Assembly (NCBI RefSeq): GCF_000317065.1
Contig: NC_019701.1
Location: forward strand, 620,001 to 684,000
Reading direction: 5' to 3'
DNA: 64,000 nt
From: Pseudanabaena sp. PCC 7367
Lineage (GTDB): Bacteria > Cyanobacteriota > Cyanobacteriia > Pseudanabaenales > Pseudanabaenaceae
The notes under the pieces: generated by a model
Databases searched by the model: none
What the model was told of the DNA's origin: nothing
Seen by the model: the letters and a program-made list of their open reading frames with translations, nothing else
Shown: positions 5,987-41,433 of the stretch, piece after piece
Position numbering within the stretch: the stretch's first letter is position 1
Layout: each line of letters opens with the position of its first letter
Position numbers and translations under genes: made by a program

Positions 5987-6518
5987 ATGAAATGCAAATA
6001 CTGTACCTCAAATCACGTTAGTAAGAATGGACATCGCGCGGCAAACAAAATTACAAATGCCAAACATGTGGCCGTCAATTCATCGAATCGTATTCCCAAC
6101 AGGGATATTCACAAGAAGTCAAGCAGGGTTGTGTAACTCTCTATGTCAATGCTCTAGGATTTCGAGCAATTGAGCATTGTACAGGAGTCAATCATAATAC
6201 TTTGATCAACTGGGTTAAGCAAAAGGGCTCGGCATTACCTAATCCACCATCGGAATGCACCATCGGAGGATAAAATTCCACCGCTAGCTAAAATTGATGA
6301 ATTGCAAACCTTTGTCGGCTCAAAAAAAAACAAAGTCTGGCTCTGGAGTGCAGTCAACGGGTACAAAGCAGGAATCCTGGCCTGGGTGATTAGGTGATCG
6401 CAGCGCCAAGACCTTCTGGCCACTATGGTTGATTTTGCGCTGTTGGCATTGCTTCTTGTATATCACTGATGGCTATCGTGTTTATCAGTATTTTATCGAT
6501 CAAAGTGAAGGCTGTTGA
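5987..6518 (+). pseudogene. Decayed IS1-family transposase (frameshifted, 3' truncated)
   Basis: The order of fragments matches the fused InsAB-type IS1 transposase of cyanobacteria. First comes a zinc-finger head, MKCKYCTSNHVSKNGHR. A 1-base loss near 6037-6041 is followed by GKQNYKCQTCGRQFIES, then YSQEVKQGCVTLYVNALGF and HNTLINWVKQKG. Another frame break near 6262-6275 is followed by AKIDELQTFVGSKKNKVWLW. A third break at about 6385-6395, possibly a small GTGAT duplication, is followed by RSAKTFWPLW and YITDGYRVYQYFIDQ, with a stop at 6516-6518. The C-terminal part with the last catalytic acidic residue is missing. It runs into, and overlaps in antisense, the last codons of the GT2 gene that stops at 6500. 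No clear terminal inverted repeats were found. Confidence 0.85.
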
Positions 6519-7537
6519 TTGCGATTACGCCAATCGGCTTTTAGTACCTTTTGCAAATTTTGCTTGTAGATATTGCGGCTGTACCATAGTCCCATTAAGC
6601 GACCACGCAAGATTTCAATTTCGATACTCTGACGATCGCCCTCCTGCTGATCAGAATTGCGATCGATTAATTTTCCACCATGCCCCAATAGCTTCAACAG
6701 CACCACAATCATACGCACCAACCAGAGCCGGGAGAGGAAAGAATAGAACCAGTTGCGGGACTGCTTGGCAATCTTGTAGGCATCTAGCCCCACACTACTA
6801 GCGCCAAATCCCCGCTTCAAGCGCTTTAGGTAACTCCATTGCAATCGATTGGGACTCATAAAATGCGAGAGATGCAACCTGGGGTCATACCACAATCGCC
6901 AGCCAGCCAGGATCAAAGCCTGACAGAATTCGTAGTCATCACAAGAGGTGAGAATTTGCCCCGCTCGTCCGCCATTGATTGGCTCAAAGCCGCGATCGTG
7001 TAATTGTTGCCAGGCTCTTTTGCGCATGGTCAAACCAGCCCCCCATAAAAAACCCCTGGTATCAGTCACATCACCAGCGGTATCTGCCTGGGTGCCAACC
7101 GCATAATCACATTGATAATCTGCAAACCAGGTGGGTAATTCTACTTCGGCTACAGCGGAGTTTTGCCCCCCGCAAGCCCCCACCTCTGGATGGTTCTGCA
7201 TAATTTCCACTACAGTTTGAATCCAGTTGGGGGATACCCAATTATCATCATCCACAAAACTAACCAGATCATATTTAGCCGTGGCGATCCCCTTGAGTCT
7301 GGCATGGGTCTGGCCGGGTTGGGGTTCATTAACAGTAATCAAGGGCGCTTGAACATTAGCGGCAGCCCAGGTTTCGATCGCTACTGCGGTGGTGCGATCG
7401 CTGGAGGCATTATCGACTAAAATCACTTCCCAATCGATCGCGGCATCAACCTGTTGCGCGACTAAATGCTGCAATGTGGTCGGTAATCTTGCTTCACCGT
7501 TATAGCAACAAATTACAATACTGACTCCAAGACTCAT
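6500..7537 (-). CDS. Glycosyltransferase family 2
   Basis: 345 residues with a GT-A fold. The nucleotide-binding start is SIVICCYNGEARLPTTLQHL, the first Asp of the sugar-nucleotide site lies in ILVDNASSDRT (about residue 42), and a metal-binding DxD-like motif is in VSFVDDDNWVSPNW (Asp96-98). The catalytic-base region appears as TSCDDYEFC. The C-terminal ~90 residues carry an amphipathic or membrane-associated stretch (FLSRLWLVRMIVVLLKLLG), suggesting action at the inner face of the plasma membrane. With a second GT2 gene, an ABC exporter and a giant surface protein on the same strand, it probably builds a polysaccharide or protein-linked glycan. The last five codons (QQPSL plus stop) lie in antisense over the decayed IS1, so its C-terminus was probably reset by that insertion. 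Confidence 0.88.
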   Translation of the reverse strand: MSLGVSIVICCYNGEARLPTTLQHLVAQQVDAAIDWEVILVDNASSDRTTAVAIETWAAANVQAPLITVNEPQPGQTHARLKGIATAKYDLVSFVDDDNWVSPNWIQTVVEIMQNHPEVGACGGQNSAVAEVELPTWFADYQCDYAVGTQADTAGDVTDTRGFLWGAGLTMRKRAWQQLHDRGFEPINGGRAGQILTSCDDYEFCQALILAGWRLWYDPRLHLSHFMSPNRLQWSYLKRLKRGFGASSVGLDAYKIAKQSRNWFYSFLSRLWLVRMIVVLLKLLGHGGKLIDRNSDQQEGDRQSIEIEILRGRLMGLWYSRNIYKQNLQKVLKADWRNRNQQPSL

Positions 7538-7729: not shown

Positions 7730-8725
7730 TTAAATGTCCGGTGCATAGTTACGCCAGAACCCCAGTGAGGCAAGCAGGGCAATTGTGGCTTCGCGCAGTT
7801 GGGCGATCGCTGCCGCCAGATCCTGAGCCCCAGTTAATGATCGTTGGGCTTGATCCAGTCCATAGCGGGCATAGTGGCGTAAGGCCAAGCTAGACAGATG
7901 TTTGGCGCGATCGGCAGGTAAATATTGCTGCATGATTTTGATCGCTCGCCGAATATCGCGCATATCTTCGCCAGTGCGGACATAGCGACCACTGTTGGAG
8001 CTGGAATGAACCCGATAAAGCGCCAATACCTCTGGCTCAAACCAAACTGGATATTGGGAGGCGATCCGCACCCACATTTCCCAGTCCTCTGACCAACTGA
8101 GGCGATAGTCAAAACCACCAATTTGCTCATATACCTGCCGTCTGACCACGATCGATGGGGTTTGGATTAGCTGCTGCACGGCGATCCGCTCTAGCCAATT
8201 GGGAATAATGCCACTGGTCGATCGTTGCGATGGCAGAATATAGCCCGGTTGATCATGCTCATCCATGAGTTGGCAGCGACAAAACGCCGCACCAAGTTGG
8301 GGATTTTGGGCAAAGGCATCCTGCAACTTGGTATAGAAGCCCGGTAAAACCTGATCATCACCATGCAATAAATGGACAATCTGCCCCCGCGATCGGATCA
8401 AGCAGGTGGCAAAGTTCTTGGTATGGCCAACGTTGTGGGGTTGACGATAGAAGACCACCCGATCGCCTGCCAATTCCTGCACCACTGCTTCTGGATCATC
8501 TTTGGTCGAGCAATCATCAATCACCTCGATCTGCATCTGCGCTGCCCCCAAATCCTGCGCCAATACACTACTCAGGGTCTGCCGCAAGTAATTAGCGCAG
8601 TTATAAGTAGGGATCATCACCGACCACAAGGGGCGATCGGCCTCGGTGGAAAGGGGGTCAACCCGAATCCGATTATGCGTTGGTGATTGTGTTGATGATT
8701 GCGGTGTTGTTGGGCTTGCGGGCAT
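7730..8725 (-). CDS. Glycosyltransferase family 2
   Basis: 331 residues. After a short Pro/Thr/Ser-rich head it has the GT-A core: WSVMIPTYNCANYLRQTLSS, then IEVIDDCSTKDDPEA, and HLLHGDDQVLPGFYTKL with the DxD-like motif. SWSEDWEMWVRIA is the usual acceptor/catalytic-base region, followed by LALYRVHSSSNSG. These features are common to family-2 enzymes that add single sugars to lipid-linked or polysaccharide acceptors. It lies about 190 bp upstream of the other GT2 gene on the same strand and about 255 bp downstream of the ABC exporter. The spacings argue for a co-oriented gene group rather than a tight operon. Donor and acceptor are not predictable. Confidence 0.88.
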   Translation of the reverse strand: MPASPTTPQSSTQSPTHNRIRVDPLSTEADRPLWSVMIPTYNCANYLRQTLSSVLAQDLGAAQMQIEVIDDCSTKDDPEAVVQELAGDRVVFYRQPHNVGHTKNFATCLIRSRGQIVHLLHGDDQVLPGFYTKLQDAFAQNPQLGAAFCRCQLMDEHDQPGYILPSQRSTSGIIPNWLERIAVQQLIQTPSIVVRRQVYEQIGGFDYRLSWSEDWEMWVRIASQYPVWFEPEVLALYRVHSSSNSGRYVRTGEDMRDIRRAIKIMQQYLPADRAKHLSSLALRHYARYGLDQAQRSLTGAQDLAAAIAQLREATIALLASLGFWRNYAPDI

Positions 8726-8982: not shown

Positions 8983-10806
8983 CTAGTTCGGCAGCGAAGA
9001 GGGCGCTTCGCCCAGAACAACCTCACTATAACTACCTGACTTTACAATCCGTCCCTGTTCCATCTGGCAAATCAGATCGCAATGTTCAACCGTAGAAAGG
9101 CGGTGGGCAATAATAATCACCGTTCGTTGACTGCTGAGCTGCTTGATCGCCTCCGTAACCAGCGCTTCGGTTTCATTATCCAGAGCGGCAGTAGCTTCAT
9201 CCAAAATGAGCACTTCGCGGCCATGATACAGGGCTCTAGCGATCCCCACCCGTTGCCGTTGTCCCCCGGAAAGTAATACGCCCCTTTCACCGGCATTGGT
9301 CTCCAACCCGTGAGGCAACTGGGCAATTAATTCACTTAATTGGGCGGTTTGCACAGCTTGCTCCAGTCGTGGCCAATCGACCTGAGCATCGGGCACGCCA
9401 AAGGCAATATTACGGGCGATCGTATCGTCGATTAAAAAGATTGATTGGGGAATGTAACCAACCAAATCCTGCCAGCCGCGCAGATTGCTATAGACATCTA
9501 CGCCGTCGATCGAAAACTTGCCCTGATCTATTTGGAGCAGCCCCAGGATAATATCGACCAGGGTGGTTTTACCTGCGCCAGATTTGCCAATCAAACCGAT
9601 CGATTGTCCCTTGCGAATCGTTAATGAGAGATCAGCGATCGCTGGCTCTGGCGCATTGGGATAGGTGTAGACAATGTTGGCCAGGGTGATTTGGCGTTGA
9701 AAGCTGAGTGACTGAGCCTGGTTTGAACGGGATTGACTTTGGCGATCGCTTACATTGGCTTGCAAATTAGCTTGATCGTGATCATTTGCCCAGGTTTCTA
9801 CCTCGCGGATATCTAAATACAGCTTGTCCACCACATAGGTATGCTTGCGAATATTGCCGAACGCACCCAGCAAGTTACTCACCGCCGGCAGCAATCGCAC
9901 CGAAGCCATTGCAAATACACTCAAAGTTGAAGTTAATGTGGCCGTGTCCCGTTCCATCAGCATCGAGAACACCACAAACCCAACAATATAAGCCACCAGT
10001 GCTGGTTCAAGAATGTTGCGGGGCAAGATCCGAAACGAATTAAAGTTCTGGTTCGCCATCTTATACTGGCGGGCTTCGATCGCCATTTTTCGTTCAAAAT
10101 ACGGCGCACAACCAATAATTGCCGTTTCCTTGAACCCACCCAGACTATGGTTGACCAGCTTAATCATGGCTTCACTGGAATCAGATTTTTGCTTTCCCCA
10201 CCGCGCGATCATGGTTTTGAATTGATATAAAAACAAGCTCAACAAACTCAGCAAAATCACAATGCTGATCGTGGCGGCAAAATCAGTCAATAGCAGTAAT
10301 AGCAGCAGCGAAAATACCACAGTTAAATTTGCCAGCGAAAACAGACTGGGCATCAGTACGCCATTGGCAAAGTTGGGCGTTTCGATCGCAATATTCTGGG
10401 TCAGCGAGGCGGTATTTCGTTGGAGGTGGAACGTATAGGGAACATGCAAATAGGCATGGATTAACTTTTGTCGTAGTTGTGCTTCCTGGCCAAAACCAAA
10501 GCCAAAAATATAGCGCTGCACCGCAAAATTCAAAACAGATTTAACAATCAAAACGCAGACCACAAACAGGCCAAACCAACTTATAAACTGCGTTGTGGAG
10601 CTGAACTGAAAACTGTCATATAGACCACTCGACCAGTCATTTTGCTGGATCGATGCGGGAGCTGAAGCGATCGCAATAAATGGGCCAATTAAACCAATGC
10701 CCACAGTTTCCAGGAGGGACGTAAAAATAAACAGCAGCACCAACAGCACTAGCTGCCTTTCTTGCCCCTTCAGGATATATAAAAGTCTAGAGATAAAACC
10801 GCCCAT
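8983..10806 (-). CDS. ABC transporter, fused permease/ATPase (PglK/MsbA-like exporter)
   Basis: 607 residues. Residues ~1-330 hold six membrane segments (LVLLVLLFIFTSLLETVGIG, FISWFGLFVVCVLIVKSV and others). Residues ~365-595 are the nucleotide-binding domain: Walker A GKSGAGKTT near 405, Q-loop YIPQSIFL, signature LLSGGQRQR near 508, Walker B VLILDEATAALD near 528, and switch His in IIIAHRLSTVEHCD. The N-terminal LETVGIGLIGPFI resembles the LExxxIxLxxPFI start of PglK-type lipid-linked oligosaccharide flippases. Together with the two GT2 genes downstream this suggests export of a glycolipid or oligosaccharide. A peptidase domain typical of bacteriocin exporters is absent, so it is not an obvious type 1 secretion ATPase for the giant protein upstream. 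Confidence 0.88.
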   Translation of the reverse strand: MGGFISRLLYILKGQERQLVLLVLLFIFTSLLETVGIGLIGPFIAIASAPASIQQNDWSSGLYDSFQFSSTTQFISWFGLFVVCVLIVKSVLNFAVQRYIFGFGFGQEAQLRQKLIHAYLHVPYTFHLQRNTASLTQNIAIETPNFANGVLMPSLFSLANLTVVFSLLLLLLLTDFAATISIVILLSLLSLFLYQFKTMIARWGKQKSDSSEAMIKLVNHSLGGFKETAIIGCAPYFERKMAIEARQYKMANQNFNSFRILPRNILEPALVAYIVGFVVFSMLMERDTATLTSTLSVFAMASVRLLPAVSNLLGAFGNIRKHTYVVDKLYLDIREVETWANDHDQANLQANVSDRQSQSRSNQAQSLSFQRQITLANIVYTYPNAPEPAIADLSLTIRKGQSIGLIGKSGAGKTTLVDIILGLLQIDQGKFSIDGVDVYSNLRGWQDLVGYIPQSIFLIDDTIARNIAFGVPDAQVDWPRLEQAVQTAQLSELIAQLPHGLETNAGERGVLLSGGQRQRVGIARALYHGREVLILDEATAALDNETEALVTEAIKQLSSQRTVIIIAHRLSTVEHCDLICQMEQGRIVKSGSYSEVVLGEAPSSLPN

Positions 10807-10991: not shown

Positions 10992-13900
10992 TCAGGCCAG
11001 GGCTCGGAAACCGTTGGTAATCGTGGAAACCTGACCACCACTATTAACCACAATGTCTTTTAGTCCTGCACTACCCAGCGATGGCAACACCCCTTCAATC
11101 CGATTACCCGATACCGAGGTGATCGTGACTTCCACCCCACCGATCGTAACTGTGGTATTACCCACGTCGCCGGAGAAATTAGCACCACCAATTACAAACG
11201 GCGCACCACCAGCGCTGGGCGATCGCCAGGGGTAGATGTCATAGGCAGTCACACCCACCGCCGCCGCATCTATCGGCTTGGACACGGTTAGATTGTCGTC
11301 GGAATAGTCAACGCCAATGATCACGCCACCAGGACCAGTGATTACATCCAGAGCAGTGGACAGGTCGGTGAACTCAGTGGTGCTATCAAAGGTGCCATCG
11401 GGTGCAACACCAAAGCTATATAGAGTTTCATTCCAGTCCTGTGCCAGGATATTGCCGCGCATTTCACCATTAAAGGTGGTAGCCCGATATTCAGTAATGC
11501 CATTGGTGGAGGCATCCACGATCGCCAGTGGCGCTTCATATATACCCGGTATCGATGGCTCATTAGTGCTGAAGTAGATATTTTCCGATCGGCTTGGATT
11601 GGGATGGCCATAGTAAGCTCCCGGCAGAATCAGGTTCACTTCATCATCCACATTCACATTCTGACCTTCCGGGGTAGGTCCAAAACCACTATTGGCACCA
11701 TTATCAGTGGCATAGAGACGGCCATCGATCGTCCAGACCAGGTCAAAGGCATTACGCAACCCAGTGGCATAGATCGAGATATCAACCCCTGGTACTACAG
11801 TCACCAAGTCGCCATAGACCTGATTAGTCGGATCGGCATCCGGTGAGGGAGCTGCGCCCGCCCACTCATATTGGATGTTGCCATTAAAATCAGGCGCATT
11901 GACATCAGCAATCAGGATCGCTGCCGCCAGAGGTGATTCAGGTAGATCGCCAATTTGTGGCCATTTTACGCCAGCATTGGTATTCCCACCCTGGGCGATC
12001 AACAGATTGCCACTGTCATCAAAGGTGAGGCCATTTACACCATGATCGTGGTTCGAGGTGGGCAAGTTGGTAATTACAGGATCGAGGTTAGCGAAGTTGG
12101 CACCGGATAGTAGCGATACCTGGCCAGTATAGGGCGAGAATTCACCGTCTGGAATTTCCGCGCCACCATTTACAAATAACTGGCTATGAGCCACATACAA
12201 TTGCGGATCATTGTGGTCGGCAAAGGGATCAAAGGCGATGCCCAGGATATTGGCATTAGTCAGGCCAGCGATCGCATTGATCTCTTCAGTCGCAGTGACA
12301 TTGTAGTCATCATCAAAGGTATAGGCTTTGATTTGGCCGGCGATCGAAGCGACATAGAGCCTACCATCGGGTCCCCAGGTTGCTTGGGTTGGCCCAAAGC
12401 TATCAGTACCAGCGATCGCGGTGGTGGTGAACTCGATCGGCACATTATCAAAGCTATAGGATACATAGGCAGTATTGCTCTGGCCGTTGGCAGTTTCAAT
12501 AATTACTGGTACGACCGTGCCGCCGGGTGTTGGTGGAGCCTGAATCTGGATTTTATTCCCATCTGTGAGCGTATAGTCAGCCGGATCTAGCTCAACCCCA
12601 TCCCAAATCACCTTAACTGGATTCGCGCCAGTGGTATCAAAGAAGCCAAAGCCATTGAGGGTGACAGTACCACCAAAGGCCGGAACCGTAGCTGGCTGCG
12701 CCTGGGTGGGCACATTATTAATAAACGGCAATAAACTGCTCTGATCGTGGCTGAGACTGCCGGGCACAAATGTAGTTGGCGTGGCATCGTCGATCGCCAC
12801 CAACACCTCGGCCATCAGTGGTGCAGTGTTGTCAAAGGCAAACCGACTTTGCAGGCTATAGGTCTGTCCCTGGGTGAGTTGAATATCATTGGGATTGACC
12901 TGATCGAGATCGCCATCCAGGTCAAAGTCAATGTAGAACTGGCGATCGCTGCCACCCTGCAACACAAAGTCATAGGAACCGGTGGTGGTTGCCGTGAACT
13001 CACCATCCATCGCCACGACCACATCACTATTAAATGGTGAACTACCCAGGGTGCTAGCAGACTCACTTACCGCCATACCTGGCAGGGCTTCCACATGGTC
13101 AACATCAGTTAAATCTGGTAGTGCCGTCACACTATCGAGCAAGGTGGCGATCGGCGCGTCGGCACCAGAATAATAGCGGGCAAATGTGCCACTCACCTGA
13201 TTGACGGGATAGATATTGACGATCGCATCACCGGTTAGTACCGCTGGCGGATCTTGGCTATCTTGAATGGTCAGGCTCAGTTGATGTTGCCCCAGCCCCA
13301 GGGTGGTGGAAATATCCGCATCGGCAATATTATTGCCCCGTTCGATCACAGTCGAGCCATCGCGGGTCCAAGTCCATTCAGTCAAAACCTCACCAAACTC
13401 ACGTGCCTGGGATTCACTCCCCCGCACATTTACTACCACCACACCATCGCCATCGTAGTCAACTAGGGTGGTGGGTACGTCCATTTCTACAAATAATTCT
13501 GGCAGCAGATCGGGGCTGACTTCAACCACCTCGATCGCGGCGATCGTTGCTTCACCCTGGCTGGCGGTTAATTGAATATCCAGTACCCCATCACTAACTG
13601 GCACCTGGGTCATAAATTCAATCAATGCTTGATCCTTGGCTCCACCCGATTGCTGCCACACATCCAGATCACTGCGCAGCACTTGGCCTTCTACCAGAAC
13701 AGTGAATTCCCGCTGGCCAGGCGCATTAAATATGGTTTCGGCAAAATTAAGATTGACATTATATGTGCCAACGTTATCTACGGGAATAGCATAGGCAAAG
13801 TTACTGCCACTACGTCCAGACTGGAATAGCTCGTCGGCAGTGGTGTTACTAATGGTTGCGGTGGTGGTATAGATGCTGCTGGTGCCACTATTAAAGCTAT

Positions 13901-16900
13901 CCTCAGCCCAAACCTTACCAAATTCATCGGTATATTCACTACCACCCACATTTACGCGAATCCCAGGCGGTGGCTCGATCGGGGTAATGGCGATCGCTGA
14001 AACTTTGGCCGCATCGGCACTAGCCACAAAATCAAGGTCTAGGGCTCCATCATTGATGGAAACATTAAAGGTCTGGCTATAGGCAGCATTCTTACCTACC
14101 TGGGCATATATATCCAGGTCATCAACAAAAAGTTGACCTTCAGCAGAGACATCAAAGACGCGATTGCCAGCCGAATTATGATATAGCTCGGCAAACTCCA
14201 GGCTGACTTGATATTCACCATCCACTAATGGGATCGTGTAGGCCAGATTTGCATCGTAACGCTCGGTTTGATAGAGCGGATCATCTACTGTGCCACCAAT
14301 ATCACCCGAAGTGGAGAAGGTCTTACCATTAACGAAGTCCTGATCGGCCACCCATTCCTGATTCAGGATATCGGTATAGGCACCGCCGCCAGCATTAATT
14401 AGCAGGGCATTGGGGTTACCAGGATTGCCACCACCACCGCTGTTGTCTTCAGTTACCGCCACATTGAAGCTGGTTTCCACAAACAAACCATCGGTGTCGG
14501 TAGCTCTGATCGTAAGCGCAGAAGTACCCACAACTGCTGTAGCGGCATAGGTAAGAGTTAACTCACCCGTGGTGGGATTGATCGCCGCATCATCAAACAA
14601 AGTGGGATCGCTGTTGTTTTCGATCGAATAAACTAAATCGACATCCGCATCCTCAAAGTCATCAAAGGCAGCAAACAAATCAACCACACTATTCACCTCA
14701 CCTTCAACCACCGACAGATCACTAATACCAGAAGTGGTGGGCACTTGCGGCGGCAGGTCACCCACCGGAGCAATGGCGATCGCTGACACCTTGGCATTAT
14801 CGGCACTGGCCACAAAGCTGAGATCTAATACCCCATCATTAACTGGGATCATGAAGGTTTCGGTATAGGCAGCATCCTTACCTACCTGGGCATAGATATC
14901 CAGGTCATCAACAAATAACTGCCCTTCGGCCAAGACATCAAAGACGCGATTGCCCGCTGAATTATGGTAGATTTCCGCAAATTCTAGGCTGACCTGATAC
15001 TCACCATTAGCAACTGGGATTTCATAGGCAAAGTCGCCACCATAGCGCTCAGTTTGATAGAGAGTTGGATCATCTGTGTTGTAGATGGCATTAGAGCCAG
15101 AGAAGGTCTTGCCACCAGTTGAATATTGATCCGCTGACCATTGCTGATTGAGAGAATCGGTGTAGCTATTACCACCAGCATTGATCAAGATTGTGGGCGG
15201 ATTAACAGGGCCACCGCTGTTATCTTCCGTTACCGCCACATTGAAGCTGGTTTCCACAAACAAACCATCGGTGTCGGTAGCCCTGATCGTAAGCGCAGAA
15301 CTACCCACAACTACTGTAGCGGCATAGGTTAAAGTCAACTCGCCAGTTGTAGGATTGATCGCCGCATCATCAAACAACGTAGGATCGCTGTTGTTTACGA
15401 TCGAATAAACTAAATCGACATCCGCATCTTCAAAGTCATCAAAGGCAGCAAACAGATCGACAACACTATTCACCTCACCTTCAACCACTGATACATCACT
15501 AATACCGCTGGTGGTGGGCACTTGCGGCGGCAGGTCACCCACCGGAGCAATGGCGATCGCAGAAACTTTTGCCTGGTCGGCACTGGCCACAAAACTTAGA
15601 TCTAATACCCCATCATTAACTGGGATCGTGAAGGTTTCGGTATAGGCGGCATTCTTACCTACCTGGGCATAGATATCCAGGTCATCAACAAACAATTGAC
15701 CTTCGGCCAAGACATCAAAGACGCGATTGCCAGCCGAATTGTGATAAAGCTCGGCAAACTCCAACGTTACCTGATACTCGCCATCTGCCACTGGAATTTC
15801 ATAGGCTAGATTTGCGTTGTAGCGCTCGGTTTGATAGAGCGGATCGTCGGTAGTGCCTGAGATGCCCTGTGAAGTGCCGAAGGTTTTACCGTTGGTGAAG
15901 TAGTCGTCTGCTACCCATTGCTGATTGAGGGAATCGGTATAAGCACTACCACCAGCATTGATCAGAAGTGTAGCCGGATTGCCGCCACCACCGCTGTTGT
16001 CTTCAGTAACCGCCACATTAAAGCTGGTTTCCACAAACAAACCATCGGTATCGGTGGCTCTGATTGTTAAGTCAGATGTGCCCACAACCGCTATAGCAGC
16101 ATAGGTTAAAGTCAACTCGCCAGTTGTAGGGTTGATCGCCACATCATCAAACAGACTCGGATCGCTGTTGTTTTCGATCGAATAGATTAAATCCGCATCC
16201 GCATCTTCAAAGTCATCAAAGGCGGCAAACAGATCGACCACACTATTCACCTCACCTTCAACCACCGACAGATCACTAATACCAGAAGTGGTTGGCACTT
16301 GCGGCGGCAGGTCACCCACTGGGGCAATGGCGATCGCTGATACCTTGGCATTGTCAGCACTGGCCGCAAAGTCTAAATCGAGAATCCCATCACTGACTGG
16401 GATCGTGAAGGTTTCGGTATAGGCGGCATTCTTACCTACCTGGGCATAGATATCCAGGTCATCAACAAATAACTGCCCTTCGGCCAAGACATCAAAGACG
16501 CGATTGCCAGCCGAATTGTGATAAAGCTCTGCAAACTCCAACGTTACCTGATACTCGCCATCTGCCACTGGAATTTCATAGGCTAGATTTGCGTTGTAGC
16601 GCTCGGTTTGATAGAGCGGATCGTCGGTAGTGCCAGAGATGCCCTGTGAAGTGCCGAAGGTTTTACCGTTGGTGAAGTGTTCGTCTGCTACCCATTGCTG
16701 ATTGAGGGAATCGGTATAAGCACTACCACCAGCATTGATCAAAAGCGTAGCTGGGTTGCCACCACCACCACTGTTGTCTTCAGTAACCGCCACATTGAAG
16801 CTGGTTTCCACAAACAGGCCATCGGTATCGGTAGCTCTGATTGTTAAGTCAGATGTGCCCACAACCGCTGTAGCAGCATAGGTTAAAGTCAACTCGCCAG

Positions 16901-18647
16901 TTGTAGGGTTGATCGCCACATCATCAAACAACGTGGGCTCGCTATTTGATTCGATCGAATAGATTAAATCCGCATCCGCATCTTCAATGTCATCAAAGAC
17001 TGAAAATAGATCAATGACACTATCTACCTCACCTTCGACCACCGATACATCAATAATGCCGCTGGTAGTTGGTGCATTATTCGCACCCAGCAATTGCAGG
17101 ATCTCAGTATCAGCCAACAAACTGGTACTGCCATCACTATCGGTAACCACAGCGGTGAAGTAGTTCAGGCCAGCTTCAGGATCGGTGTTGGTGAGGGTAA
17201 CGGGGATATCAACAAAGCCAGTAGAGCCAACAGTGGCGCTTTGCTCATCCACACTCACGATCGCATTGGCTTCAAACGGATCGAGATCAAACCCACTACC
17301 ATTGTCGGTAAAGAGGGCGGTTTCAAACTGCAACAATGACACATCAGCACCGACGGGCGCGCTGACTCGGATTACTTGATTAGCTATTTCGGAGGTGTCG
17401 GGAGTAGTGATCCCACCCAAAACTTCGATCGTAGGCGCGGTTGGCAATTGCTCCTTGACGATCGCTTGCGAACCAACTTCACTATTGGGAATGCGATAGG
17501 TTGCTGCGGTGTAGCTATTCCCATCACTGAAGTCAATGGTTACGGTAGTGCCAGCCAACTCCAGGCCGGAAACACTGGCGGCGTGATTTGGGCCTGGTGC
17601 AGGTAACCCCTGGGTACTGGTGGGATCATTGTCGATCGAGAAAGTAAAAGTTTCACCGGGGTCAAAGTCGGTGAACACAATTTCCAACGCATCATAGCCA
17701 AAGGTGCTATTGCCATCATGGGGCGCTAGAAAAGTATGGGAATCCTGCCCCGTTGCGGATTCACCACTATCGGGCGTAAAGTCTTTACCGATCGGATCGC
17801 CCGCTGTACCAAATGGGTCGAAGATAAGATCTGGCAGAATCGCCGTACTAATGTCAATTACAACCCGCTCAATTTGAATGCCGCTATCGGAATTGTTACT
17901 AATTTGAAATGAGCCACTGGAGTAGGTACTACTGGTGACAATATTATTATCGGGCGGCTCGATCACCAGTTCAGCCTGGGCGATCGTGGGCAAGATGTCA
18001 TTGAATTCCTCGGTGAATGCGGTGCTAAATGCCGTAGGGCTTTCGATCGCGCCAGTGGTTACCTCTAAATCCCAATCGCCACCCAGCAGACTGCTACCAG
18101 TCAAATCATCTGAGGCGGCCACATCTGCACCACTAAGCTGACTGAGCGACTGCACAAAACCTAGTCCGGCTTCACCCTTGGCCACATTGCAGCCATATAG
18201 CAAAATATCGGCATCGGCAGTGAGGGAGTTTTGCCAACCGGCGATCGCCTCGCTGTAGCTATCAATGGTCTCTTGGCCTAACCAACTGGCTCCTAGTTGC
18301 ATCCCCCCACTGGCAGCATGGGAAATAATATGGATCGCCGAGACCTGGCCAAACCCTTGACCAAACCCGCCAAACCCACTGAGATACTCGCCAATTTGCG
18401 CCACCCCATCCCGATCGGCATCGAGGAATACCACCTCTAATCCTGGCAAGGCTCCAGCCGCAAAGTTACCAGCACTGGCCGCCCGCTCATCCACAAATAC
18501 CACTCCACCGAGTTCACCGGAATTTAGTCCAGCCCCTTGAGTGAAACCCTGGCTCAAAGCTGTTGTGCTGGAATTTATACCGGGAAATGCAGCGATCAAC
18601 TCAGAATTAGTTTCTAGGAAAGACATAGGTGGCAATGGGAAGAACAA
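10992..18647 (-). CDS. Giant DUF4347/cadherin-like/malectin/PA14-like/IPT/sugar-dehydrogenase-like surface protein
   Basis: 2551 residues with a mosaic architecture. Residues ~48-225 are a DUF4347 domain (VVFVDERAA, IHIISHAASGG, ADILLYGCNVAKG, LSGADVAASDDLTG). Residues ~225-525 are beta-sandwich sequence. From ~528 to 1560 there are four units of a cadherin-like domain (SVVEGEV, TLTYAA, IRATDTDGLFVETSFNV) plus a malectin-like carbohydrate-binding domain (LLINAGG, DPLYQTERY, GNRVFDVLAEGQLFVDDL). A fifth, divergent malectin-like domain follows to ~1715. A PA14-like region (ARYYSGADAPIATLL, FTATTTGSYDFVLQGGSDR) occupies ~1820-1955, an IPT/TIG domain ~1975-2070, a beta-propeller resembling PQQ-type sugar/sorbosone dehydrogenases (WGPDGRLYVASIAG, HGVNGLTFDDSGNLLIAQGG) ~2075-2450, and a last IPT/TIG domain ~2475-2550. 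There is no classical signal peptide. Many cyanobacterial DUF4347 proteins are exported, so a cell-surface, carbohydrate-binding role is inferred. Confidence 0.85.
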   Translation of the reverse strand: MFFPLPPMSFLETNSELIAAFPGINSSTTALSQGFTQGAGLNSGELGGVVFVDERAASAGNFAAGALPGLEVVFLDADRDGVAQIGEYLSGFGGFGQGFGQVSAIHIISHAASGGMQLGASWLGQETIDSYSEAIAGWQNSLTADADILLYGCNVAKGEAGLGFVQSLSQLSGADVAASDDLTGSSLLGGDWDLEVTTGAIESPTAFSTAFTEEFNDILPTIAQAELVIEPPDNNIVTSSTYSSGSFQISNNSDSGIQIERVVIDISTAILPDLIFDPFGTAGDPIGKDFTPDSGESATGQDSHTFLAPHDGNSTFGYDALEIVFTDFDPGETFTFSIDNDPTSTQGLPAPGPNHAASVSGLELAGTTVTIDFSDGNSYTAATYRIPNSEVGSQAIVKEQLPTAPTIEVLGGITTPDTSEIANQVIRVSAPVGADVSLLQFETALFTDNGSGFDLDPFEANAIVSVDEQSATVGSTGFVDIPVTLTNTDPEAGLNYFTAVVTDSDGSTSLLADTEILQLLGANNAPTTSGIIDVSVVEGEVDSVIDLFSVFDDIEDADADLIYSIESNSEPTLFDDVAINPTTGELTLTYAATAVVGTSDLTIRATDTDGLFVETSFNVAVTEDNSGGGGNPATLLINAGGSAYTDSLNQQWVADEHFTNGKTFGTSQGISGTTDDPLYQTERYNANLAYEIPVADGEYQVTLEFAELYHNSAGNRVFDVLAEGQLFVDDLDIYAQVGKNAAYTETFTIPVSDGILDLDFAASADNAKVSAIAIAPVGDLPPQVPTTSGISDLSVVEGEVNSVVDLFAAFDDFEDADADLIYSIENNSDPSLFDDVAINPTTGELTLTYAAIAVVGTSDLTIRATDTDGLFVETSFNVAVTEDNSGGGGNPATLLINAGGSAYTDSLNQQWVADDYFTNGKTFGTSQGISGTTDDPLYQTERYNANLAYEIPVADGEYQVTLEFAELYHNSAGNRVFDVLAEGQLFVDDLDIYAQVGKNAAYTETFTIPVNDGVLDLSFVASADQAKVSAIAIAPVGDLPPQVPTTSGISDVSVVEGEVNSVVDLFAAFDDFEDADVDLVYSIVNNSDPTLFDDAAINPTTGELTLTYAATVVVGSSALTIRATDTDGLFVETSFNVAVTEDNSGGPVNPPTILINAGGNSYTDSLNQQWSADQYSTGGKTFSGSNAIYNTDDPTLYQTERYGGDFAYEIPVANGEYQVSLEFAEIYHNSAGNRVFDVLAEGQLFVDDLDIYAQVGKDAAYTETFMIPVNDGVLDLSFVASADNAKVSAIAIAPVGDLPPQVPTTSGISDLSVVEGEVNSVVDLFAAFDDFEDADVDLVYSIENNSDPTLFDDAAINPTTGELTLTYAATAVVGTSALTIRATDTDGLFVETSFNVAVTEDNSGGGGNPGNPNALLINAGGGAYTDILNQEWVADQDFVNGKTFSTSGDIGGTVDDPLYQTERYDANLAYTIPLVDGEYQVSLEFAELYHNSAGNRVFDVSAEGQLFVDDLDIYAQVGKNAAYSQTFNVSINDGALDLDFVASADAAKVSAIAITPIEPPPGIRVNVGGSEYTDEFGKVWAEDSFNSGTSSIYTTTATISNTTADELFQSGRSGSNFAYAIPVDNVGTYNVNLNFAETIFNAPGQREFTVLVEGQVLRSDLDVWQQSGGAKDQALIEFMTQVPVSDGVLDIQLTASQGEATIAAIEVVEVSPDLLPELFVEMDVPTTLVDYDGDGVVVVNVRGSESQAREFGEVLTEWTWTRDGSTVIERGNNIADADISTTLGLGQHQLSLTIQDSQDPPAVLTGDAIVNIYPVNQVSGTFARYYSGADAPIATLLDSVTALPDLTDVDHVEALPGMAVSESASTLGSSPFNSDVVVAMDGEFTATTTGSYDFVLQGGSDRQFYIDFDLDGDLDQVNPNDIQLTQGQTYSLQSRFAFDNTAPLMAEVLVAIDDATPTTFVPGSLSHDQSSLLPFINNVPTQAQPATVPAFGGTVTLNGFGFFDTTGANPVKVIWDGVELDPADYTLTDGNKIQIQAPPTPGGTVVPVIIETANGQSNTAYVSYSFDNVPIEFTTTAIAGTDSFGPTQATWGPDGRLYVASIAGQIKAYTFDDDYNVTATEEINAIAGLTNANILGIAFDPFADHNDPQLYVAHSQLFVNGGAEIPDGEFSPYTGQVSLLSGANFANLDPVITNLPTSNHDHGVNGLTFDDSGNLLIAQGGNTNAGVKWPQIGDLPESPLAAAILIADVNAPDFNGNIQYEWAGAAPSPDADPTNQVYGDLVTVVPGVDISIYATGLRNAFDLVWTIDGRLYATDNGANSGFGPTPEGQNVNVDDEVNLILPGAYYGHPNPSRSENIYFSTNEPSIPGIYEAPLAIVDASTNGITEYRATTFNGEMRGNILAQDWNETLYSFGVAPDGTFDSTTEFTDLSTALDVITGPGGVIIGVDYSDDNLTVSKPIDAAAVGVTAYDIYPWRSPSAGGAPFVIGGANFSGDVGNTTVTIGGVEVTITSVSGNRIEGVLPSLGSAGLKDIVVNSGGQVSTITNGFRALA
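13985..17065 (-). repeat. Four tandem 777-bp cadherin-like/malectin coding repeats
   Basis: Equivalent codons at 17065, 16288, 15511 and 14734 are each exactly 777 bp apart (259 codons). Each unit encodes one cadherin-like and one malectin-like domain. Long tracts are almost identical between units, especially units 1 and 2, while unit 4 has a slightly longer linker (GGGGNPGNPN). The fifth malectin-like domain at 13505-13965 is clearly diverged and lacks the cadherin-like partner. Such repeats can expand or contract by recombination. Confidence 0.92.
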
Positions 18648-19442: not shown

Positions 19443-20738
19443 ATGAGAGTTTTACACCTAGCCACCCATGAAGGATCGGGAGCGGGACGCGCTGCCGGCA
19501 GAATCCATTTAGGTTTGCGCCGCGAAAAATTTGATTCCCATATGCTGGTGGCTCAAAAAAGCTCAGAGCTGCCAACCGTCGTCAAACTCGATCGCTATCG
19601 TACTTTCTTCAAAAAAGTACAAGCCCGCCTCTTTGGACGAGAATTAAGTAAGCGACTGGGGCAAAATACTACCTTCTCGATCAATGCCACTGCTTCCCTG
19701 TTGCGATCGCCCATTGACCAAATTGCCCCAGATCTAATTAATTTGCATTGGGTGGGTTGGGAATATTTTAAGATTGAAGACCTGGCCAAATTGCAAAAAC
19801 CTTTGGTGTGGACATTACAAGACATGTGGCCCTTTACGGGTGGGTGTCACTATAGCCAGGGTTGCGATCGTTATTTGCAATCCTGTGGCAATTGTCCACA
19901 ACTCAAGGCCAACCAGGAAAACGACCTATCGCGCTGGGTATGGCAACGAAAGGCGCGATCGTGGCAGGATTTGGATCTCACCATTGTTACGCCTAGTACC
20001 TGGATGGCTGATTGTGCCAGGGCCAGTTCTCTGTTTAAACAGTTAAGGATTGAAACGATTCCCTTTGGCCTGGATACGCAAATATATCGACCGATCGATC
20101 CACAGCTTGCCCGCCAAAAATTGGCATTGCCCACCAATAAAAAATTAGTGCTATTTGGCGCATTGAGTGCCACTCAGGATCACCGCAAAGGTTTTCATTT
20201 ATTGATTCCTGCCCTGACAAAGCTAGCTCAATCGGAATGGGGCGATCGGATCGAATTAGTGGTTTTCGGCGCTTCCCGCCCCGATGAGCCGATCGATCTG
20301 GGGTTCCCAACTCACTATTTAGGCCAACTCAACACCGATGCAGCTTTAACAGAAGCCTATTCAGCCGCAGATGTGATGATTGTACCGTCGGTTGAAGAGG
20401 CATTCGGCCAAACCGCTTCGGAGGCATTGGCCTGCGGCACACCAGTGATCGCCTTTCGTGGCACTGGCGTACAGGATATTGTTGATCACCAGCAAACGGG
20501 CTATCTGGTTAAACCCTATGAGGTGGAGGATCTCGCTGCTGGAATCGCCTGGGTCTTGGATGCTGATCCAGAACTAACCGCCAAGCTACGCTATCAATCT
20601 CGGCTCAAAGCAGAAACGGAGTTCTCTTTGTCAGTTCAAGCCCAGCGCTATTTAAAAATCTATGCTGAGCTAGCAAATGCCGATCGCCAGGAGCGATTGC
20701 CTCAAGCGATCCCCGTTCTTACCAAAGAGTTTTCTTAA
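19443..20738 (+). CDS. Glycosyltransferase family 4
   Basis: 431 residues. The GT-B fold starts with MRVLHLATHEGSGAGRAAGR, in which the glycine-rich loop after the first strand (GSGAGRAA) contacts the donor. LINLHWVGWEYF and WTLQDMWPFTGGCHYSQGC, with a Cys-rich stretch (CHYSQGC, CGNC), are typical of a GT4 subgroup of exopolysaccharide/O-antigen mannosyl- or galactosyltransferases. The C-terminal half has KGFHLLIPAL, the donor-binding EX7E motif region in VPSVEEAFGQTASEALACGT and GTGVQDIVDH. It transfers sugar from a nucleotide-sugar to a growing polysaccharide at the cytoplasmic membrane. It is divergent from the giant surface protein and 48 bp upstream of the DUF5682 gene. The exact sugar is not predictable. 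Confidence 0.88.
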   Translation: MRVLHLATHEGSGAGRAAGRIHLGLRREKFDSHMLVAQKSSELPTVVKLDRYRTFFKKVQARLFGRELSKRLGQNTTFSINATASLLRSPIDQIAPDLINLHWVGWEYFKIEDLAKLQKPLVWTLQDMWPFTGGCHYSQGCDRYLQSCGNCPQLKANQENDLSRWVWQRKARSWQDLDLTIVTPSTWMADCARASSLFKQLRIETIPFGLDTQIYRPIDPQLARQKLALPTNKKLVLFGALSATQDHRKGFHLLIPALTKLAQSEWGDRIELVVFGASRPDEPIDLGFPTHYLGQLNTDAALTEAYSAADVMIVPSVEEAFGQTASEALACGTPVIAFRGTGVQDIVDHQQTGYLVKPYEVEDLAAGIAWVLDADPELTAKLRYQSRLKAETEFSLSVQAQRYLKIYAELANADRQERLPQAIPVLTKEFS

Positions 20739-20786: not shown

Positions 20787-23585
20787 ATGACCGGAGCCAG
20801 GATGGAGCGATCGCCAAATACCAAGCCAAATACCAAGCCAGATCAAGAATCAAAGCAGGATTTAGATCAAGAACTAGAGCAGCTATTTGCAAACTTGATC
20901 AGTGAAGATTTAATCTTCTTCCCCATTCGCCACCATAGCCCCGCCTGTGCCTGGCATTTGCAAAAACTAATTAGCGATTGGCGACCGGCTCGGATTCTGA
21001 TTGAAGGCCCCAGAGATATGAATGAGCTGGTGACTCATTTGCTCAAGCCAGAGACCCAAGCACCGATCGCAGTGTTTACTACCTACATCGACCATGCCCA
21101 AAGATTAGGAGAGCTACCGGAAGAACTGGCAGCAATGAGAGCACAACGATTTGCGGCCTATTATCCCTTTTGCGACTATTCGCCAGAACTGGTTGCAGTA
21201 CGGGCAGGGAGTGAGATCGGAGCCAAGATCCAGTTCATTGATTTGCTGTATGCCGAAAAAGTGATTGCCAGCTATCTGCAAGCTGAAGAAGCGGAAGAAG
21301 AACAGGATGACAATCGCCCTGAGCCTTTAGATCAAGCGCCAGATCAAGCACCAGGGGAAAACTCAGATCGCCCTTCCCATCAGGTGCAAACCCTCCTGGA
21401 AGAGAACTATTTTCAGCACAGCCAATACTTGAATGCCCTGGCAAAAAAAACAGGTTGCCGAGATGCTGATGACCTATGGGATCATATGTTTGAGGCCAAT
21501 TTCTTGCATTTGCCCACAGCTAAATTCATCCAAAATGTGGCCGCCTATTGTTGGATGGCCAGACGTGATTCGTCCAGGCAATCGCTGGTACAGGATGGCA
21601 CGATCGCCCGTGAGGAAGCTATGGCAGCCGCGATCCAGTTAGCCAAAAAAGAAATCAAAAAGGAAGTGGTAAACGCGAGGAAGAATGCAAGCAAGCAAAA
21701 AGAGGGATCAACAGATCTAAATGATTACAACCATAAAATTTTGGTAGTTACTGGTGGGTTTCACACGATCGCCCTGCCTGATTTGATCAAGCAGAAGTTG
21801 CCCAAACAAAAAAAACTGAAATTAAAAACAGAAGAGGCGCAGACCGTTTTAATGCGCTATGGCTTCGAGCAATTGGATGCCCTAAATGGTTATGGGGCGG
21901 GAATGCCATCCCCAGGTTATTATCAACGGTTTTGGGAACAGTTGCAGCTAGATCCTACTGAACCTCTCAGCGAAACGGCTAATCAGATTCTAGTGGAATT
22001 AGGAATGCGATCGCGCCTCAGCCTTGATCACAACAAGAATAACGAATCTCAAAAAGAACAAAAAAAATCTGAGCAAGAATATTCCCTGCAATCGGAACCA
22101 CAACCAATTCAAGGATTGTTGCCTCTTTCTACCGCTGATGCGATCGCGGCTTTGACTCAAGCTAGGAGTCTGGCAGCATTTCGTGGTCACAGTGGTCCTA
22201 CCCGCGAAGACTTACTCGATGGGGTGCGAAGCTGCCTAGTAAAGGGAGCAATGGATGCGGAAGGGGTGGTGTTAATGTCACTGGTGCAGCAACTTCTGCG
22301 CGGCGATCGGATTGGTGAATTGCCCGATGATGTGGGCATTGCGCCGATTGTGGCAGACTTCCGACAGCGATCGACTAAACTCCGCCTCAGGGTCAATAAT
22401 TCCACCGCTAAATCCTCTACCCTGGAAATTTATCGCAAACCAAAGCATCGCCACACCAGTCGCTTTTTCCATACTCTGGCATTCTTGGAAGTTCCCTTTG
22501 CCAGGTTAGTTACAGGGCCAGACTTCGTGCAGGGGAATCAACTCGATCGCCTTCAGGAAGTGTGGGAATATCGCTGGGTGCCACAAACGGAAAGCACCTT
22601 AATAGAGCGATCGCTTTATGGGGCTACAATCGAAGCAGCCGCGATCAATCGATTGCGACAAGCAATTTATGATCTAGAGCAGGAAGGGAGGGCAAGGTCA
22701 GCAATCGAAGCGGTCAAGATGCTCACGATCGCTTGTCGGATGGGGTTACATGCCCATGCAAGTGGGTTATTGAACTTGATTGCTAGCAATATTGCCGAAG
22801 ACCCCGAATTTAGTTCCCTGGTTGATGCGGTGGCGGAATTATTATTGTTATGGCAATCGCGGGAACCACTGGCAGCACAGGGCTTAAGCCAAGTTAAGGA
22901 GTTATGTGCGATCGCCTATCAACGGCTCTGTTATCTGCTGCCAAATTTAGCGAATTGCGCGGAGGAGATGGTTAATGATTTATTGACCAAGTTCTGTGCG
23001 GTGCGTGAATTTTTATACATGACCGCGAGCAATAATAGCCAGAAGCAAGACCCAGAGGAGATTTGGCTCGATCGGGAACTTTTCTATCAAGGGATTGAAT
23101 TGTTACTGGACTTACCTCAAGGACAACCAGCCTTGCAGGGAGGCGCAGTGGGAATTTTATATAGCGATCGGCGGATTACAGAGGAGCAAATCATGGCGAT
23201 CGCTACAGCCTATTTAAATAGTTCAGAAGCGGCTCCTAGGGTTACGGCTGAATTTTTGCGTGGGTTGCTGAGAACCTGCCGCGAGGTAGCCTGGAACCTG
23301 CCCCAATTGTTGCAAGTAATTGACCAACAATTGCAGTCCTGGGAAGAGGAAGGCTTCATGAAGGCACTACCGGAATTCCGACTAGCGTTCGCCGATCTTA
23401 CTCCCCGCGAAACCGATCGAGTGGCGGCGCTAGTAGCTGGCCTCCATGATGAACAGCACCTGGGCGATCTCACTGAACGGCGATTAACTGAAGCCGATCT
23501 GCAAATGGGTTTACAAATGAATCAGTTATTAACAGATTCACTCAAGCAGGATGGTCTATTGGCGTGGATTTCAAGTAATAGTTAG
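20787..23585 (+). CDS. DUF5682 family protein
   Basis: 932 residues with an acidic, Lys/Gln-rich head, then the conserved DUF5682 core: FFPIRHHSPACAWHLQKLIS near residue 47, ILIEGPRDMNELV, AVFTTYID, a histidine-containing LVVTGGFHTIALPDL near 315-330, and FRGHSGPTREDLLDGVRSCL near 470. The second half is alpha-helical and ends in a Leu-rich repeat-like array. The RHHSP and TGGFHT motifs suggest a metal-dependent or hydrolase-like active site related to the EreA/ChaN-like superfamily, but no reaction is established. In many bacteria this family is encoded beside MoxR-type AAA ATPases and VWA proteins. None is present here: the neighbours are GT4 upstream and convergent valS. An alternative start at 20802 (MERSPNT) is possible. 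Confidence 0.8.
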   Translation: MTGARMERSPNTKPNTKPDQESKQDLDQELEQLFANLISEDLIFFPIRHHSPACAWHLQKLISDWRPARILIEGPRDMNELVTHLLKPETQAPIAVFTTYIDHAQRLGELPEELAAMRAQRFAAYYPFCDYSPELVAVRAGSEIGAKIQFIDLLYAEKVIASYLQAEEAEEEQDDNRPEPLDQAPDQAPGENSDRPSHQVQTLLEENYFQHSQYLNALAKKTGCRDADDLWDHMFEANFLHLPTAKFIQNVAAYCWMARRDSSRQSLVQDGTIAREEAMAAAIQLAKKEIKKEVVNARKNASKQKEGSTDLNDYNHKILVVTGGFHTIALPDLIKQKLPKQKKLKLKTEEAQTVLMRYGFEQLDALNGYGAGMPSPGYYQRFWEQLQLDPTEPLSETANQILVELGMRSRLSLDHNKNNESQKEQKKSEQEYSLQSEPQPIQGLLPLSTADAIAALTQARSLAAFRGHSGPTREDLLDGVRSCLVKGAMDAEGVVLMSLVQQLLRGDRIGELPDDVGIAPIVADFRQRSTKLRLRVNNSTAKSSTLEIYRKPKHRHTSRFFHTLAFLEVPFARLVTGPDFVQGNQLDRLQEVWEYRWVPQTESTLIERSLYGATIEAAAINRLRQAIYDLEQEGRARSAIEAVKMLTIACRMGLHAHASGLLNLIASNIAEDPEFSSLVDAVAELLLLWQSREPLAAQGLSQVKELCAIAYQRLCYLLPNLANCAEEMVNDLLTKFCAVREFLYMTASNNSQKQDPEEIWLDRELFYQGIELLLDLPQGQPALQGGAVGILYSDRRITEEQIMAIATAYLNSSEAAPRVTAEFLRGLLRTCREVAWNLPQLLQVIDQQLQSWEEEGFMKALPEFRLAFADLTPRETDRVAALVAGLHDEQHLGDLTERRLTEADLQMGLQMNQLLTDSLKQDGLLAWISSNS

Positions 23586-40644: not shown

Positions 40645-41433
40645 TTAACTTAAGTCGATGTTTAAAAGCTGGCTGAGGCGATCGATTTCCTGGTGATATT
40701 TTCGCTTCAGGTAATTGCGATCGCGTGGCTGCATTGCTTGCTGGTATTTGCCCACTAATATCCGCTCTGGTGCTGGCGGTACGATTGTTGAGTCAATCTC
40801 AAGGAATTCATAAATCCGCCGCAGGGTTTGGTTATGTTGCGATTGCAGCTCTTCATTGCGCAGGATTAACAAGTTCTGGCGATCGAAATACTTGAGCAAA
40901 TTTTGAATCTGGCGGTAATAAAAGCCCCGATCGACATAGGAATGGGTGCGAATTGGCGATCGCTCTGCTTCTGGATTAGCCCCGAGTTTCAAGCGTAAAT
41001 ATTCCAGTCTGATCGCAATCGGAAAAGGCAGCCACTCCCAACCTCTAGATTTTTCCATCTGGTATTGGGAATAGGCGCGATCGATCGGATTACGCAAGAT
41101 CAAAATCACTTTCATATTCGGGTTATAAGCATAAATCCGCTGCGGCACCCAGGGTAGATACATATATATGGGTGTAGCCTCACCAACTGCTAGCTGATCG
41201 TGGTAGTTAGGGAAAAAGCTGTGATAGTAGTCATAATTAGGCTTTTGGGACGAGCTTTGGTTAGCTAAATCCTTGGCCTGAATCTTACTTTGAGCATAAT
41301 AATTTTTGTCGTAGTCAAAGAAATGGACTTCTTTAACCGGAGCCATGCAAACCTGCGGGTGTTGAGCCAGGAACTTCGCCAGGGCAGTAGTACCACCTTT
41401 CTGGGTGCCAGCGATGATGAAATTAACTTGCAT
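40645..41433 (-). CDS. Sulfotransferase (heparan-sulfate-type)
   Basis: 262 residues. The PAPS 5'-phosphosulfate loop is FIIAGTQKGGTTALAKFLAQ (residues 5-24), with the catalytic Lys in QKGGTT. EVHFFDYDKNYY follows, as in the HS-NST/Sulfotransfer_1 group. The 3'-phosphate-binding motif is ILILRNPIDRAYSQYQMEKS (about 109-128) and DRGFYYRQIQNLLKYFD is the conserved helix before the end. It transfers sulfate to sugars or proteins in the cytosol. Length is normal for the bacterial family. It lies 600 bp upstream of the RTX gene on the same strand. With the TPR-sulfotransferase it forms a pair of PAPS-dependent enzymes flanking the RTX/PPIase genes. Confidence 0.88.
   Translation of the reverse strand: MQVNFIIAGTQKGGTTALAKFLAQHPQVCMAPVKEVHFFDYDKNYYAQSKIQAKDLANQSSSQKPNYDYYHSFFPNYHDQLAVGEATPIYMYLPWVPQRIYAYNPNMKVILILRNPIDRAYSQYQMEKSRGWEWLPFPIAIRLEYLRLKLGANPEAERSPIRTHSYVDRGFYYRQIQNLLKYFDRQNLLILRNEELQSQHNQTLRRIYEFLEIDSTIVPPAPERILVGKYQQAMQPRDRNYLKRKYHQEIDRLSQLLNIDLS

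Follow-up and report, generated by a model that had tools for sequence, protein, structure and literature searches.

The closest described systems to the protein treated here come from several directions. In the sugar dehydrogenase sGDH, a PQQ-type beta-propeller, His144 is the catalytic base; HHIP, of the same fold, is a non-enzyme. Malectin-type domains are also able to bind peptides or other proteins. In Xenopus malectin, the residues that contact diglucose are Y67, Y89, Y116, F117 and D186 (PMC7783096). The DUF4347 domain is carried by Tce1 (PA0256; PMC8262886), a putative cysteine protease of the P. aeruginosa T6SS with the pair His186/Cys240 (PMC13323088). A literature search for malectin–propeller proteins found nothing, and DUF4347 is named in four papers found.

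The window analysed here, a stretch of 64,000 nucleotides from Pseudanabaena sp. PCC 7367, holds a giant gene whose product, based on a conserved core, is on balance probably a multivalent glycan binder that is exported and directed at the exopolysaccharide of the same cell (Table 1). The listed start codon is TTG, with an ATG at residue 8 (18626). The GC content of the open frame (0.505) is close to that of the other genes (0.48–0.53), and so there is no sign of a foreign insert. A scan for promoters and terminators was uninformative (5 promoter-like sites vs 15.7 by chance, 10 terminator-like sites vs 10.3), and so lends no support to an operon with the ABC gene.

Table 1. Features of the giant gene and its neighbours, in window coordinates
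Feature	Coordinates	Strand	Basis or remark
GT2 glycosyltransferase	6500..7537	(-)	downstream of giant gene
GT2 glycosyltransferase	7730..8725	(-)	downstream of giant gene
PglK/HepA-like ABC exporter, linked to core in other genomes	8983..10806	(-)	NCBIfam + genome comparison
Whole ORF, 2551 aa	10992..18647	(-)	single open frame, no internal stop
C-terminal TIG/IPT domain	10995..11258	(-)	Pfam
Sugar-dehydrogenase-like beta-propeller (residues 2067-2460); His2202, Arg2298	11268..12449	(-)	Pfam + predicted fold
First TIG/IPT domain, approximate bounds	12456..12734	(-)	Pfam
PA14-like stretch (residues about 1830-1960), approximate bounds	12768..13160	(-)	Pfam 16.1 bits, below cut-off 24
Malectin 5 (residues 1564-1705), outside repeat	13533..13958	(-)	Pfam/HMM
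Repeat unit 4: putative Ig/cadherin-like spacer (1306-1409) + malectin 4 (1415-1552), 3 extra codons, different end	13959..14732	(-)	repeat + Pfam
Repeat unit 3: spacer (1047-1150) + malectin 3 (1153-1290)	14733..15509	(-)	repeat + Pfam
Repeat unit 2: spacer (788-891) + malectin 2 (894-1031)	15510..16286	(-)	repeat + Pfam
Repeat unit 1: putative Ig/cadherin-like spacer (residues 529-632) + malectin 1 (residues 635-772)	16287..17063	(-)	repeat + Pfam
ndom, unmodelled conserved domain (residues 224-425)	17373..17978	(-)	recurs in relatives
DUF4347 head (residues 49-219); His110 (18318-18320), Cys153 (18189-18191)	17991..18503	(-)	Pfam + predicted fold
GT4 glycosyltransferase	19443..20738	(+)	upstream, opposite strand

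From the N-terminus the protein runs through a DUF4347 head, a conserved domain of ~200 aa (ndom), four units of spacer plus malectin, a fifth malectin, a PA14-like stretch, a TIG domain, a propeller and a second TIG domain. In Pfam, DUF4347 is matched at 4.7e-53 and Malectin, in five stretches, at 1.6e-161; two TIG domains and GSDH (6.3e-9, over its cut-off) are matched as well. The PF11721 profile gives five malectin matches of 100–125 bits each (cut-off 23 bits), four within the repeat and one outside it; the 4.89-Mb genome has no malectin match elsewhere. No cadherin or Ig-like model of Pfam matches the spacer of this protein. A homologous Tolypothrix spacer (L078), ~50 per cent identical, matches Big_9 (31.0 bits) and He_PIG (28.5 bits), both over their cut-offs, and the spacer is therefore taken as a bacterial Ig/cadherin-like domain. 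Of the mosaic proposed in the sequence-only reading, the DUF4347, malectin, TIG/IPT and GSDH-propeller parts hold, while the cadherin-like part is reached only through the Tolypothrix spacer and PA14 stays below threshold, the relative L052 scoring just over the PA14 cut-off (25.0 bits). That reading also saw carbohydrate binding suggested in several parts, and with five malectins carbohydrate-binding domains are indeed present.

In a model of residues 1706–2551 the propeller comes out with high confidence, and the GSDH model matches it at 36 bits (cut-off 25). As modelled, it has the PQQ/AA12 sugar-dehydrogenase fold: the comparison with a PQQ sugar dehydrogenase gives a Z of 32.6 (rmsd 2.8, 301 residues), followed by the PQQ domain of fungal pyranose dehydrogenase (32.2), AA12 (31.2), sGDH (~30) and HHIP (26.0), and Foldseek agrees with the assignment. 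His144 of sGDH corresponds to His2202 by way of a bridging relative (L053), and Arg228/Asn229 to Arg2298/Asn2299 in a profile alignment; the equivalents of His144 and Arg228 are retained in this protein and in the cyanobacterial cores. These matches could suggest that the main role of the protein is enzymatic and lies outside the cell: the propeller would work as a sugar oxidoreductase of PQQ type (AA12-like), and the malectins would only keep it on its polysaccharide substrate. Such a role would also fit a family that conserves the propeller rather than the array. However, the C-terminal blades gave no sequence alignment to sGDH, so that the PQQ-site match covers His144 and Arg228/Asn229 only, and the fold is shared with a non-enzyme, HHIP. 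In addition, the genome encodes no PqqE over cut-off, and PQQ would therefore have to come from outside. A protein that is first of all an enzyme is rather unlikely on this evidence.

The malectin array, the variable part, has a more involved history. The exact period reported by the sequence-only reading is confirmed, with start-to-start distances of 777, 777 and 777 bp, or 259 codons each; counted between malectins, one of the distances becomes 786, as unit 4 carries three additional codons. The units had also been called nearly identical, and this they are not: DNA identity is 0.914 between units 1 and 2 and 0.776–0.820 in the remaining pairs, with dS of 0.275 and 0.69–1.04, respectively. 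Across unit pairs dN/dS is ~0.12–0.18, which means that the units are under purifying selection. The 58 sites informative among the four units divide into 40 that group 12|34, 12 that group 13|24 and 6 that group 14|23, and sites of one pattern tend to lie together, in 14 runs where 28.3 are expected (a number as low in 0 of 20000 shuffles). Between units 3 and 4, dS in the malectin half (1.47) far exceeds that in the spacer half (0.37). Parts of a unit thus carry different histories, and the mosaic site patterns and uneven dS fit repeated recombination or gene conversion rather than a single recent burst. An origin by recent duplication or gene conversion, as first supposed, therefore survives in its second half, while a dS of up to 1.04 speaks against one recent burst; only units 1 and 2 look like a fairly recent pair.

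The same turnover is visible among relatives. The core, that is, the propeller with its TIG domain, was found at 78 loci of named genomes, in cyanobacteria, planctomycetes, verrucomicrobia and Bdellovibrionales and more distantly in others, and a domain combination at first thought unusual is not a one-off, since the core family spans several phyla and five of the compared core proteins (this one, L048, L076, L078 and L129) have a DUF4347 head. Several relatives are headless. None of the genomes of the strain's own family in the class sample has the C-terminal core, and the core tree is a quick one with weakly supported deep forks, on which no argument is built. Read as whole proteins, the cyanobacterial members vary around the order (DUF4347)–ndom–(array)–malectin–core, with ndom placed behind the core in L076 and L101. 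Spacers are Ig/cadherin-like (this protein, L076), Calx-beta-like (L049 and several Nostocales) or Pro/Thr-rich (L048, as read from the sequence); CBM6/CBM35 domains also occur in L047, L051/L089 and L083, and a CBM-like domain, read by eye, alternates with the spacer in L078 and L129. Some loci depart further from this plan: tandem pairs of core proteins occur in Nostocales genomes (L073, L074, L075), the longer proteins of Methylobacterium/Methylorubrum (L140–L144) are reversed, with the propeller before the malectins, and L091, L098, L113, L125 and other planctomycete loci have Kelch-like-looking tails behind the core (e.g. VFVAGGG).

Relatives carry 0–5 malectins, and in a malectin tree the array domains cluster by protein (units 1–4 of this protein at 100/99, L048 1–3, L049 1–2, L101 2–4, L076 1–4), with further within-protein pairs in L067, L069, L077, L124 and L073. 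The last malectin, where resolved, groups across species (L067 with L069; L077 with L124 and L073). These groupings indicate that arrays expand or homogenise within lineages and that the anchor malectin is inherited together with the core. Near relatives are set apart by clean gaps that span whole units: 246 aa between L078 and L129 (cores 90 per cent identical), 185 aa between L067 and L068 (98 per cent), 161 aa between L067 and L070 (96 per cent), and 267 and 115 aa between L074 and L075 (98 per cent), where several comparisons involve drafts or MAGs and the lower unit number of L068, L070 and L075 may reflect collapsed repeats; between L078 and L129 the larger number of units is in the draft. 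A change in copy number, as had been anticipated, is thus what is found, and no fixed repeat number holds across relatives. The array evolves as whole units are gained, lost and partly recombined, around a core that does not change.

It might be argued from this that array length has no function, that unit number drifts by recombination and that the near-exact spacing reflects in-frame unequal exchange only. Unit numbers that differ even at cores 96–98 per cent identical, and the mosaic units themselves, are in keeping with such drift. However, the reading frame is kept throughout the units, purifying selection acts on them, and arrays have been independently rebuilt by lineages with different spacers, which points to some use for an array. 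An array whose length has no function is quite improbable, and this reading can hold together with that of a glycan-binding protein.

What the array would bind is suggested by its neighbours. The sequence-only reading placed the gene in a glycan gene region, and this is borne out by an ABC exporter and two GT2 genes downstream and a GT4 gene upstream. The best NCBIfam matches of the exporter are PglK, MsbA and HepA, all far under the equivalog cut-offs (HepA/PglK, 269 vs 725 and 325 vs 1000 bits), and it therefore forms a separate subfamily. In a survey of 12 genomes, full-length relatives of the exporter (44–48 per cent identity) adjoin the core in three (G213, G140, G061) and lie 17 kb away in a fourth (G164), so that core and exporter are linked wherever both occur among the genomes searched, five in all with this one. 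An exporter of the same subfamily also adjoins the core in Pleurocapsa (L083). Two genomes have the exporter without the core (G004, G014), and three have the core without a full-length relative of the exporter (G083, G379, G136). The two are linked where both occur, yet neither needs the other. GT2 and GT4 genes surround the linked copies, and with an exporter and glycosyltransferases adjacent, the glycan is most likely the cell's own exopolysaccharide. The window further encodes a TPR-sulfotransferase (34357-36849, minus strand), a 687-aa RTX protein with nine HemolysinCabind stretches (37973-40036, minus strand) and a 932-aa DUF5682-family protein (20787-23585, plus strand). A second sulfotransferase (40645-41433, minus strand) has a relative that adjoins the core in L065, which hints at a sulfated polysaccharide.

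There is reason to think that the protein is extracellular. By a hydropathy scan, not a trained predictor, no signal peptide was seen in this protein or its cyanobacterial relatives, and many planctomycete, verrucomicrobial and Bdellovibrio relatives (e.g. L081, L091, L092, L098 and L125) have a hydrophobic, signal-peptide-like N-terminus, which makes an extracellular location likely. In the cyanobacteria the route would presumably be a non-Sec one. An HlyD-type adaptor is encoded in the genome, not near the giant gene, and no HemolysinCabind match to RTX nonapeptide repeats was found in the protein with Pfam, so that it is not filed as RTX; with neither signal peptide nor RTX repeats, type I export is a guess.

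At the other end of the protein, DUF4347 (PF14252) is matched at 179.7 bits (cut-off 24.6). In a model of residues 36–430 the head gives Z values of 12.9 to Tce1 (9qpe_G), 9.0 to SAVED-CHAT, 8.2 to legumain, 6.6 to RgpB and 6.1 to caspase-3, of which only that to Tce1 stands well above the noise level of the comparison (Z 7–8). Clan CD folds fill the list and Foldseek agrees on it. The head is thus predicted to have a caspase/legumain/CHAT-like fold (clan CD cysteine peptidase) with its His-Cys pair intact; His110 and Cys153 are in register with His186 and Cys240 of Tce1, and a comparison of 25 DUF4347 sequences shows the Cys in all and the His in 20. A sequence-profile link between DUF4347 and CHAT/C14 is not counted, as the motifs align but at an hhalign probability of 1–8 per cent. 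The genome encodes a second DUF4347 protein, without malectin (L061 6354-9281; G000:C2, about 2,449,000; 975-992 codons), and among viral contigs DUF4347 was found at one locus. The adjoining ndom has no match in Pfam or NCBIfam and recurs in relatives at 41–58 per cent identity, and its model compared with known folds reaches at best a noise-level Z of 7.5 (YcnI, then DUF4466). It is also present in L134 (Krumholzibacteriota, two copies) and L138 (Halorubrum).

That the protein acts on other cells, as an adhesin- or effector-like molecule whose malectins bind foreign glycans (of a host, prey or neighbour) and whose head is an active peptidase, would be in keeping with the fold and His/Cys pair shared with Tce1 (PMC13323088) and with an array turnover that would fit changing targets, but is very improbable for a gene linked to glycan synthesis and export rather than to toxin, immunity or T6SS genes, with units under purifying selection and several relatives devoid of the head.

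The preferred reading is thus a surface protein that binds the exopolysaccharide of its own cell. The C-terminal propeller of sugar-dehydrogenase type and its TIG domain are the fixed part, and the row of malectins ahead of it, held apart by Ig-like spacers, would bind extracellular glycan with avidity. The head, with its His-Cys pair intact, has the predicted fold of a cysteine peptidase, and the adjacent genes encode a lipid-linked-oligosaccharide-type ABC exporter and glycosyltransferases. Such a protein probably holds or organises exopolysaccharide at the surface. Counting against it are an ABC linkage that is not universal, the absence of a recognisable signal peptide and of RTX repeats, two malectin contact residues of the five that units 1–4 do not keep, the departure of malectin 5, by eye, at most of the five, and the ability of malectin-type domains to bind peptides or other proteins. 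A bolder version, given the slimmest chance here, has an active clan CD head that processes or anchors the protein and an active AA12-type propeller that is held on the cell's own exopolysaccharide by the lineage-rebuilt array; if true, a single surface machine would bind, hold and modify the sheath.

Several points reach beyond this one gene. A family for which no paper was found is outlined, with a propeller–TIG core and a variable sugar-binding array in several phyla, and the linkage of core and ABC exporter genes proposes a ligand for the malectin array. The family also has an extra domain that neither Pfam nor NCBIfam covers, and the DUF4347 head found on giant proteins of cyanobacteria gains a predicted fold. 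Pairs of relatives with whole units more or fewer provide ready comparisons for the effects of valence in glycan binding, and the giant protein is a good example from nature of how a putative glycan-binding array evolves.

Set beside the known systems, each part of the protein is familiar and differently placed. Like the ER malectins of Xenopus and human (PF11721; 2jwp, 2k46, 9ikp), its malectins are matched by the HMM of the domain, and units 1–4 retain Y89 and Y116 in an alignment to the solved structures and, by eye, a D at the position of D186; unlike them, they are repeated within a giant protein, units 1–4 have no equivalents of Y67 and F117, and malectin 5 differs by eye at most of the five contact positions. 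With Tce1 (9qpe) the head has in common DUF4347, the predicted fold and the His/Cys register, whereas here DUF4347 heads a giant protein and no T6SS link is seen. The neighbouring exporter has HepA and PglK among its best matches while scoring far under their equivalog cut-offs. The propeller shares its modelled fold (Z 24–33) with PQQ sugar dehydrogenases and AA12 (3a9g, 6jt5, 6i1q, sGDH 1c9u) and with HHIP (7pgm, 3ho4), and with sGDH the equivalents of His144 and Arg228, but it does so at ~10–20 per cent sequence identity and is flanked by TIG domains and malectins.
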